Shown here: positions 28,158-44,834 of the stretch, one piece after another
How positions within the stretch are numbered: position 1 is the first letter of the stretch
How the letters are laid out: each line of letters begins with the position of its first letter
DNA from: Candidatus Saccharimonadota bacterium
GTDB taxonomy: Bacteria; Patescibacteriota; Saccharimonadia; Saccharimonadales; Saccharimonadaceae
DNA length: 64,000 nt
Reading direction: 5' to 3'
NCBI GenBank assembly: GCA_009783305.1
Contig: WRHJ01000001.1
Coordinates: 124,001-188,000 of the forward strand
Made by a program: the position numbers and the translations under genes
The notes under the pieces: model-generated
Told to the model about the DNA's origin: nothing
What the model saw: only the letters and a program-made list of their open reading frames with translations
The model's database searches: none

Positions 28158-30224
28158 TTAATTCAATGTTGTGAGTCGCTGATATTTCTGAACGCTGGCG
28201 GCTAACTCTTTATATTTTAGCATATTTGGTTTGGTTTTAGCAAACCGATTGACGGCCTGGCGGGCAGCGGCGATGAGTTTGGTATCAGTGATAGAAGCAA
28301 TGCGCAGGTCGAGGGCGCCATGTTGGAGCGAGCCATAGATTTCGCCGGGACCACGCAGTTTAAGGTCGACTTCGGCGAGATGGAAACCATCTTGGGAACG
28401 TTCGATTTCCTTGAGCCGGCGGGTGGGAGCGCTTGAGCTGGAATTGATAAGGTAACAGTATGATTCAGCGGTGCCGCGCCCGACTCTTCCTCGCAACTGA
28501 TGAAGTTGTGAAAGTCCGTAACGATCGGCGTCAGCTATGACCATGACGGTAGCGTTGGGGACGTTGACGCCGACTTCGATGACAGTGGTGGAGACGAGGA
28601 TATTGATTTTATTGGCGGTGAATTTGGCTATGATGTTGTCTTTTTCGGCGGATTTCATTTTGCCGTGGAGATATTCAACTTTGTAGTTGGGGAATTTTTT
28701 GGCGATGCTGGCGGCTTCTTTTTTGACGGACGATAACTCGGTACCGTCTTCGATCATCTTGCAGACATAATAGACCTGGCGTTTTTGTTTCAGCTCATTT
28801 TCGATCGCTTGCCACATTTGGTCGATAGAGTTGGGCGAGATGATTTTGGTGGTGATGGGTTGGCGACCCTTTGGCAATTCATCGATGATAGAAATGTCAA
28901 GATCGCCAAAGACGGTGAGCTGAAGACTCCGAGGTATAGGAGTAGCTGTCATAGACAGAAGATGAGGAATGGTGCCAAAAGAGGATTCTTCACAATAAGT
29001 ACATCGTGAAGAATCTCTTTTGGCACTTTCCTCAGTATCTGTCTTTGCTAGCAATGCCTGACGTTGTTTGACGCCGAAACGGTGCTGTTCGTCGATGATC
29101 GCCAGGCCCAATTTATGAAATATTGTGTCGTCAGTCAGCAAGGCGTGGGTGCCGATGACGAGATCAACTTGGCCGTCACGGATTTGTTTTTTGAGCGTGG
29201 ACTTGTTTTTGGTGGAGCCGGTAAGGAGAGCGATGTGCAGACCGCTGCTTCTTAGAAAACTATGAATAGTTTCGGCGTGCTGGGCGGCGAGAATTTCGGT
29301 GGGAGCCATCAAAGCAGTTTGGTAGCCAGATTTGGCAGCAATGAAGGCAGACAAAGTGGCGACAAGGGTTTTGCCACTGCCGACATCGCCTTGGAGGAGA
29401 CGGTTCATGGGTATAGGACTGTCGAGATTTTGGATAATTTCCCAGGTGGAACGGCGCTGGGCATTGGTAAGTTTGAAAGGAAGTTTGGCAATGATTTTTT
29501 TCAACTGGTCGAGCTGGTATTTGATGACGGGGCTGCGAAGTTTCTGGTTTTCTTCACGATTGAATTGCCCGGCAAGAAGGAGCGAGAAAAGTTCTTCAAA
29601 AGCGAGGTATGCCCTGCCCTGGTCGGCGTCGGCGGCAGATTTGGGAAAATGAACTTGAAAAAGTGCCTCAGATCGGAGGGTTTTGATGGTACCGGGCGGT
29701 AGTAAGTCCGGAATTTGGGCAAAAAATGGTTTGATGGTGTTAAAGAATTTGGTGAAGTTGGTGGACTTGAGTTTGCCGCAGGCGGGATAGACGGGCTGAT
29801 ATTTGTCGGCGGCACGGTCATAATCTGAGGCAAGGGTGGCGGATGGATTCATTAGTTGATAGCGGCCGTATGAAAATTCGAAATTGCCAGAGAAATAATA
29901 GGTTTTGTTGGGGTCAAATTGGTTAGTGCGATAGGGTTGATTAAACCAGATGGCGCGCACTGAGCCAGAATCGTCACTAAGTATGGCTTCGGTGATAGAA
30001 AGATTGCGACGTTTGCGATTGGTTTTGATACTGCTGACTTTGGCCTTGACAGTGACTTTACCTGGTCGCAGGTCGCTGATGCGGCCGGCGCCTTCGTAGG
30101 ATTCGTAAGTACGCGGCAAATGATAAAGCAGGTCGCGGACGGTAAAAAAACCGGCCCTGTTGAGCAGTTCGACGGTTTTTGGGCCGATACCTTTAATATT
30201 ACCGAGCGGCGAACTTAACTCCAT
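28158..30224 (-). CDS. recG: ATP-dependent DNA helicase RecG, with in-frame palindromic insertion
   Basis: IKGIGPKTVELLNRAGF, LLQGDVGSGKTLVA, IDEQHRFGVKQRQALL, MTATPIPRSL, QLRGRVGRG. Confidence 0.95.
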   Translation of the reverse strand: MELSSPLGNIKGIGPKTVELLNRAGFFTVRDLLYHLPRTYESYEGAGRISDLRPGKVTVKAKVSSIKTNRKRRNLSITEAILSDDSGSVRAIWFNQPYRTNQFDPNKTYYFSGNFEFSYGRYQLMNPSATLASDYDRAADKYQPVYPACGKLKSTNFTKFFNTIKPFFAQIPDLLPPGTIKTLRSEALFQVHFPKSAADADQGRAYLAFEELFSLLLAGQFNREENQKLRSPVIKYQLDQLKKIIAKLPFKLTNAQRRSTWEIIQNLDSPIPMNRLLQGDVGSGKTLVATLSAFIAAKSGYQTALMAPTEILAAQHAETIHSFLRSSGLHIALLTGSTKNKSTLKKQIRDGQVDLVIGTHALLTDDTIFHKLGLAIIDEQHRFGVKQRQALLAKTDTEESAKRDSSRCTYCEESSFGTIPHLLSMTATPIPRSLQLTVFGDLDISIIDELPKGRQPITTKIISPNSIDQMWQAIENELKQKRQVYYVCKMIEDGTELSSVKKEAASIAKKFPNYKVEYLHGKMKSAEKDNIIAKFTANKINILVSTTVIEVGVNVPNATVMVIADADRYGLSQLHQLRGRVGRGTAESYCYLINSSSSAPTRRLKEIERSQDGFHLAEVDLKLRGPGEIYGSLQHGALDLRIASITDTKLIAAARQAVNRFAKTKPNMLKYKELAASVQKYQRLTTLN
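28946..29051. repeat. in-frame palindromic element copy 1 (in recG)
   Basis: GTGCCAAAAGAGgATTCTTCAC-AATAAGTACATC-GTGAAGAATCTCTTTTGGCAC with the outer arms extending through TTCCTCA/TGAGGAA and TCTGTCT/AGACAGA. Confidence 0.85.
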
Positions 30225-30241
30225 GCAGTCTATTATACTGC

Positions 30242-30946
30242 CTAGGAGGTCTTGGGGGAATTTTGCTCGCGCCATTTGGCAATGGCACCGTGATTACCGG
30301 AGAGCAGGACGTCGGGGACTTTCATGTCTTTAAAGGTTTCGGGGCGGGTGTATTGGGGATATTCAAGATTATCTCCGTCCGAGAAAGATTCGATTTCGGC
30401 GCTGGTTTCGCCGCCGAGGACGCCGGGGATTAACCGGACTATGCTGTCAATGACGATCATGGCTGGCAGTTCCCCGCCGGTTAAAATATATTTGCCGATA
30501 GAAATCTGATGATCTACCAATGACAAGATCCTTTCGTCATAACCTTCATAGTGCGGACAGATTACGATGTAGGAAATTAGCGAAGAGGATTTTTCACAAT
30601 AAGTACATCGCGAAAAATCCTCTTCCGCTAATTCCTCTGTCGCAAACTTCCTGGCTAGTTCTTGAGACCATATGGTGCCTTTTGGAGTCATAAGGATCAC
30701 TTTGGCGTCTGGATTAGTTTTTTTGGCATGTTCAACGGCGGCGAAGATTGGTTCAGGTTTCATCAGCATGCCGTCGCCGCCACCGTAGGGCGTATCATCG
30801 ACTTGACGGCGGGGGCCAATGCCGAATTCGCGCAAGTTGATCAGTTCAAATTCTACTAGGTTTTTTTCTTGCGCTTTCCAGAGCATAGAAGTGTCAAGAA
30901 CTGGAGCAAACATTTCCGGAAATAGTGTGATAATTGAGAATTTCAT
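30242..30946 (-). CDS. trmD: tRNA (guanine37-N1)-methyltransferase, with in-frame palindromic insertion
   Basis: MKFSIITLFPEMFAPVLDTSMLWKA, PYGGGDGMLMKPEPI, PHYEGYDERIL, YILTGGELPAM. Confidence 0.95.
   Translation of the reverse strand: MKFSIITLFPEMFAPVLDTSMLWKAQEKNLVEFELINLREFGIGPRRQVDDTPYGGGDGMLMKPEPIFAAVEHAKKTNPDAKVILMTPKGTIWSQELARKFATEELAEEDFSRCTYCEKSSSLISYIVICPHYEGYDERILSLVDHQISIGKYILTGGELPAMIVIDSIVRLIPGVLGGETSAEIESFSDGDNLEYPQYTRPETFKDMKVPDVLLSGNHGAIAKWREQNSPKTS
30571..30645. repeat. in-frame palindromic element copy 2 (in trmD)
   Basis: AATTAGCGAAGAGGATTTTTCAC-AATAAGTACATC-GCGAAAAATCCTCTTCCGCTAATT; same 12-nt loop as copy 1. Confidence 0.85.
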
Positions 30947-32078: not shown

Positions 32079-32141
32079 TAAAATCTTTGAAAGATTTTAC
32101 TGCCTCGCTTGGCAAAAGTAAAACCTAGGTTTTACTTTTGC
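32079..32141. repeat. tandem intergenic palindromes, including a 30-bp perfect palindrome
   Basis: TAAAATCTTTGAAAGATTTTA (32079-32099) and GCAAAAGTAAAACCTAGGTTTTACTTTTGC (32112-32141). Confidence 0.85.
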
Positions 32142-32166
32142 GCTCGCTTCGTTGTAAAATAGCTAA

Positions 32167-44554: not shown

Positions 44555-44596
44555 AGCGTGTGCTCCTGCTCGGGATTACGAGTCGCGCTTGACTCG

Positions 44597-44666
44597 GATT
44601 TGGAGCGTATCGGACTTTTACCGTTGCGGCACAGTGCACGATTTTCACGCGCTTCCGCTCCAAATC
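44597..44666. repeat. inverted repeat in the divergent rpoB upstream region
   Basis: GATTTGGAGCG (44597-44607) / CGCTCCAAATC (44656-44666). Confidence 0.7.
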
Positions 44667-44834
44667 ATTTTGATTTAGTTTGAGTATTGCATAATTTTTA
44701 GAAAGCGTGTAGACTTGATTCCAAGAAGTAGTGTGCCGTGCCAAAAAAATCTGATCTGGCGCATCAGATGGGGCAGCCGGCTGTAATCTTCCGGCCAAAG
44801 ATATAAAACACTAATAATACAAGCGAGGAAATTC

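Follow-up and report, generated by a model that had tools for sequence, protein, structure and literature searches.

The window, by which we mean the whole 64-kb stretch of DNA analysed here, comes from a genome of 788 kb (G000) and contains the genes trmD and recG, each of which holds a palindromic element (Table 1). The two copies lie 1604 bp apart, and the hairpin sequence quoted for trmD in the preliminary description of this DNA was found on the minus strand within that gene. Six hairpins with stems of at least 12 bp were detected in the window, the one in trmD being the strongest; first-order Markov sequences used as a control gave 0 or 1 such hairpins, the longest of 13 bp. A 17-nt apex pattern, with up to 3 mismatches allowed, matched only the trmD and recG sites across the 64 kb, and two matches were obtained in 0 of 100 shuffles.

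Table 1. Features of the window, with positions counted from its first nucleotide
Feature	Position	Strand	Details
trmD, tRNA (guanine37-N1)-methyltransferase	30242..30946	minus	~18-aa insert before strand YIVICPHYEG
Palindromic element in trmD	30572..30635	minus	~25-bp arms and 14-nt apex
Covariance-model match, trmD element	30577..30630		70.8 bits
Invariant apex CGATGTACTTATTG, trmD copy	30597..30610	minus
recG, ATP-dependent DNA helicase	28158..30275	minus	~21-aa insert between LLAK and TIPHLLSMTATPIPR
Palindromic element in recG	28964..29033 (28950..29046 with imperfect outer complementarity)	minus	arms of ~26 bp, outer part imperfect
Covariance-model match, recG element	28973..29025		65.1 bits
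Invariant apex CGATGTACTTATTG, recG copy	28993..29006	minus
Perfect 13-bp hairpin GCAAAAGTAAAACCTAGGTTTTACTTTTGC	32111..32142		gap downstream of a glpX-like gene; probably an ordinary terminator
AdoCbl-II (cobalamin) riboswitch match	44596..44667		48 bits (gathering score 36.5)

Neither insert is found in the TrmD and RecG orthologues of the same genus, which align without them (for each protein about 28 were aligned, from searches of up to 44 genomes). When both proteins are aligned by phmmer with their homologues in the PDB, the alignments run on continuously except for gaps at the inserts. Both are a multiple of three in length and stop-free in the frame of the host gene, and TrmD and RecG with their inserts score above the NCBIfam equivalog cut-offs. 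PheT of the same genome carries about nine extra residues in a loop that varies among congeners; since these have a loop of their own at that place, this insert, which is likewise in frame, is less clean than those of TrmD and RecG.

Searching G000 by the apex and then with a covariance model gave seven copies in total (family 1), so that the proposed second copy of the recG element in trmD was borne out as part of a larger set. The five further copies are one in pheT and four at gene 3' ends, namely in two convergent gaps (between the sortase and PEGA genes and between thyA and rarA), downstream of rpmE, where a degenerate second apex lies alongside, and at the 3' end of ruvB; the genes at the gap sites are what we take them to be from their translations. 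The 14-nt apex is unchanged in six of the seven copies, the ruvB copy having a diverged one. It contains no stop in any forward frame, and two of the three frames are used: the resulting peptide is SRCTYCE in TrmD and RecG and SRDVLIAR in PheT. The reading frame was thus rightly described as the same for recG and trmD, but this does not extend to pheT. Copies measure about 60-95 bp (about 64 bp in trmD and about 97 bp in recG, imperfect outer arms included), four of them have inner arms of the AAAGAGGATTTCTC type in common, and their outer ends are variable, with no clear target-site duplication on inspection.

An ungapped alignment of six family-1 copies has 93% of its cells paired. Both bases have changed in 17 of the 25 stem pairs and only one in none of them, a result reached by 0 of 500 shuffles, and when the registers were slid by 1-3 columns pairing fell to 45-53% and two-sided changes to 2-6. 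The same alignment confirms that the trmD stem is rewritten relative to that of recG and yet complementary, as had been noted at the outset, including an inner change from C:G in recG to T:A in trmD (column pair 17/38). The TTAGCGG/CGCTAA block of the trmD stem does pair, but with a one-base bulge.

Some of these arms extend into the host sequence. At ruvB, the final seven codons of the gene and its stop (HIRKQKD, stop) make up the left arm. This C-terminus is homologous to that of a congener (HLHKKP, stop), and the right arm is an inverted copy of the left. The outer left arm of the recG copy resembles the reverse complement of the native codons ATTCCTCATCTTCTGTCT, which encode IPHLLS and are kept in congeners, and the imperfect outer complementarity of this copy reaches into them. 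In the sortase gap, additional imperfect complementarity of some 40-60 nt runs into both neighbouring genes; for the recG and sortase flanks, complementarity beyond 26 bp has p values of 0.02 and below. Homology identifies the native arm clearly for ruvB only and partly for recG.

Outside G000, the family-1 covariance model found no copy in the 44 congeners and only weak matches to other hairpins in 392 genomes of the order, for each of which few candidates were scored. A match in one genome (L201 in G213) was considered as a family-1 copy and rejected as a different hairpin. The exact apex occurs 33 times in a collection of 84,980 species genomes, in which records of G000 itself may be absent; all of these matches are stem-less and their count is near chance expectation, so that no hairpin with this apex was found there outside G000, Rickettsia included. 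Exact matches in viral contigs (seven) and in relatives from the order (four) have no stems either and are about as numerous as expected by chance, and several stray matches seem to be no more than RCTYC codons in proteins of the radical-SAM type. BLAST of the element against phages and plasmids returned nothing meaningful, and no Rfam covariance model matched at its gathering score, the only matches being sub-threshold ones to microRNA precursors, which are typical of any long hairpin. The remark that no known family has a CTYC-encoding loop therefore holds for Rfam and for the phages, plasmids and genomes searched, but palindromic elements inserted in frame are, as a kind, known from Rickettsia and Wolbachia.

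A second family, first seen through two weak matches in a sister genus, is unrelated to family 1 in sequence and equal to it in architecture. Its core, AAGACTTGGSCNAGCGSCCCGGAGCG, with a 26-nt apex, is joined by an inner stem, a step of tandem G-A and arms that are long and variable. Of 295 genomes searched by pattern in the taxonomic family, 35 contained it; they belong to five genera, one of which rests on a locus that proved stem-less (L275); reversed-pattern controls gave zero, and the apex was absent from viral contigs. We fetched 73 copies. Thirty of them occupy long ORFs, where they run in either orientation and use four or more frames. The host proteins, which we presume from a comparison of the residues flanking the inserts with known families, include LigA, LysS, LeuS, QueA, UvrB, UvrD, TsaD, TlyA, RecX and Tgt; LigA and LysS are supported by PDB alignments, and the alignment of RecX did not resolve whether its insertion site is empty elsewhere. 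Loci of this family are L202-L231 and L234-L273 (for example L204, L211, L219, L222 and L261), and in one frame the element encodes the peptide FEGPKTWPSGPERPE. Within one subtype (44 distinct copies) the apex is nearly invariant and the stem pairs covary, and the tandem G-A mismatch adjoining the core is kept in about half of the family-2 copies.

Young family-2 cores within one genome have inner arms of about 20 bp in common. In G272 and G307, near-identical cores carry outer arms of about 12-22 bp that are unrelated between copies yet locally complementary. Insertion sites in RecX, UvrB, QueA, TsaD and TlyA recur across species and, in recX, uvrB and tlyA, different species carry the element at the same site and with the apex pointing either way; in uvrB, L274 and L262 have identical cores that face opposite ways in the gene. 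These opposite orientations could stem from separate insertions into a hotspot, and template switching, too, has been reported to yield them (PMC8604942).

Several family-2 loci depart from the basic architecture. In four from G285 (L252-L255) the apex is extended and contains an extra small hairpin segment, of the form GTGAGCGGAGCGAACC or close to it, which may be a nested insertion, and in the family-2-like loci L199/L215, L200/L217 and L231 a second perfect hairpin lies inside the core as a nested palindrome, with the apex CACAATTTATTGTG in L199 and L200. L218 and L256 show tandem partial duplications (left arm and half of the apex) beside a full copy, the sort of by-product to be expected when template switching or slippage goes wrong. 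The tsaD loci L234, L244 and L267 have the same-site insert at different stages; L234 has largely lost its right arm and is apparently a decaying copy. The uvrB locus L274 lies in G044 (contig C5), the only genome in the genus of G000 that has a family-2 copy, and it possibly belongs to a misbinned contig, since the contig is short and the genome shows some contamination.

Dispersal itself, either by mobility or by a copy mechanism, had been suggested from the trmD and recG copies, and it is well supported by the seven unrelated sites, the absence of the TrmD and RecG inserts from congeners and the existence of family 2. We consider it probable that these are mobile palindromic elements similar to those of Rickettsia, whose arms are made and kept near-perfect by DNA template switching and not by selection on RNA. 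The alternative of a functional RNA hairpin (a terminator, a stability element or a protein-binding site), in which compensatory mutations preserve pairing under selection, is in line with the strong stem covariation of both families, with the location of four of the seven family-1 copies at gene 3' ends, with the sense orientation of all four copies that have one clear transcript, with conserved G-U pairs in the apex, and with the conserved tandem G-A motif of family 2. However, a selected RNA hairpin should tolerate G-U but not A-C, and in the arms family 2 has 84 G-U and 68 A-C mismatches (p 0.22), family 1 having 7 and 11 respectively. This lack of a G-U excess favours a process at the DNA level and, together with the pairing into the ruvB codons and the recG flank, makes the selection for structure invoked in the preliminary description neither needed nor favoured. 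Moreover, the family-2 apex faces either way with respect to genes, even at one site, stable hairpins lie within essential ORFs without evident use, and Rfam offers no meaningful match, all of which leads us to regard an RNA function as unlikely. The tandem G-A motif is also a counterpoint to template switching, as unselected correction might have erased it.

The elements could instead resemble MITEs, that is, non-autonomous transposons moved whole by a transposase, arms included, with the differences between arms reflecting age. The inner arms common to four family-1 copies, and those common to young family-2 cores of one genome, would fit such whole-element movement, but the outer ends have no constant terminal repeats, no target-site duplication is convincing, near-identical cores carry unrelated and locally complementary outer arms, G000 has no Y1 transposase, and age alone would not preserve the pairing of the arms, which makes this origin improbable. 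It is very doubtful that translation jumps over the hairpin (programmed bypassing of the byp type) or that splicing removes it from the mRNA: hairpins do interrupt conserved domains, and the palindromic elements (byp) of Magnusiomyces mitochondria have been described as transcribed and untranslated (PMC6649704), but bypassing would need neither the preserved frame nor the absence of stops that the inserts of TrmD and RecG show. Chimeras formed by multiple displacement amplification (MDA) are often inverted, the assemblies are drafts, and the UvrB copy of G044 lies on a short contig; nevertheless, an artefact of assembly or amplification, with inverted chimeras arising at the level of reads or MDA, can practically be dismissed: the apex is constant from one unrelated site to the next, copies within genes have lengths that keep the frame, family 2 includes 30 in-frame copies, and the orthologous insertion sites common to different species refute such an artefact in practice.

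Under the template-switching model that we favour, a short core (the constant apex and the innermost stem) would be copied to new sites, and at each of them one arm would come mostly from local sequence or from the element, with the other as its inverted copy. Hairpin-primed copying from arm to arm, by a polymerase that switches template, would build and correct the arms, and both would change together because one is copied from the other. Within genes, only in-frame, stop-free insertions sited in loops would survive, and the added peptide would be translated as a surface loop; the absence of stops from all three forward frames of the apex would explain its tolerance in coding sequence. The elements themselves may be selfish or neutral. 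A point against the model is the conservation of the apex, which greatly exceeds that of the arms, so that something favours it, be it a protein or a recent spread. The search for a mobilising enzyme covered the Y1 transposase (PF01797), which is absent in G000, and yielded none. Somewhat doubtful is a stricter version in which only the apex is heritable and moves, and replication folds back there and builds host-derived arms from local DNA. If this were true, arms would differ everywhere and mimic RNA covariation without RNA function.

Loss of SbcD, a hairpin nuclease, may make palindromes tolerable. Neither G000 nor any other genome of the genus passed the SbcD cut-off (weak matches in 11), and this loss cannot explain the distribution, because the congeners also fail the cut-off and yet have no family-1 copies.

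Small dispersed palindromic repeats are also known as REP/BIME sequences and MITEs. REPs lie outside genes, bear GTAG/CGTC tags and have Y1 (RAYT) transposases as partners, and MITEs have constant terminal repeats; here, in contrast, three of the seven family-1 copies are intragenic, RAYT/Y1 (PF01797) is absent from G000, and neither the tags nor constant terminal repeats were found. The closest likeness is to the Rickettsia palindromic elements (RPE; Ogata et al. 2000, 2002), which are 105-146 bp long, are intergenic as well as in frame in conserved genes, and have arms that reportedly grow less alike with age (PMC2229807, PMC6649704). Both are small dispersed palindromes, in frame in housekeeping genes of a reduced genome, whose enzymes tolerate the inserts. 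However, family 1 is shorter and belongs to another lineage, with a constant apex and arms that are rewritten in concert and stay matched. Set against these RPE descriptions, its lineage, its length, its constant apex with arms that stay matched and the signs of arms built from local DNA keep it from being filed as an RPE. Coding-compatible palindromic repeats, in this respect like family 1, have been described from Wolbachia (WPE) and Methanocaldococcus jannaschii (PMC2229807), again in different lineages.

Inverted repeats within protein genes whose arms are kept matched have a parallel in the mitochondria of Nematomorpha, where coding palindromes are perfect inverted repeats with actively maintained arm identity (PMC6649704). 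Those arms are host-coding and reach 142 bp, and a shared apex is not described in the passages on them, unlike the dispersed constant apex found here. Template switching at quasipalindromes has been reported to homogenise the arms of inverted repeats jointly and to invert spacers (PMC8604942), and has been proposed to create and maintain hairpins (PMC8794818). It resembles our case in arm homogenisation, multi-base paired changes and spacer inversion, but it is a mutational process and not an element, and its target in these genomes would be a dispersed apex. A survey of inverted repeats found them densest, among phyla, in two candidate-phylum lineages (PMC13155455).

Our literature search found no earlier report of palindromic elements in this lineage. 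The two unrelated families described here add a tiny-genome lineage to a list of in-frame palindromic elements known mainly from Rickettsiales, and the sites in RecX, UvrB, QueA, TsaD and TlyA indicate that essential genes can absorb palindromic insertions repeatedly. They also provide a natural case in which strong stem covariation may stem from DNA copying and not from RNA selection, which bears on the use of covariation as proof of RNA structure.
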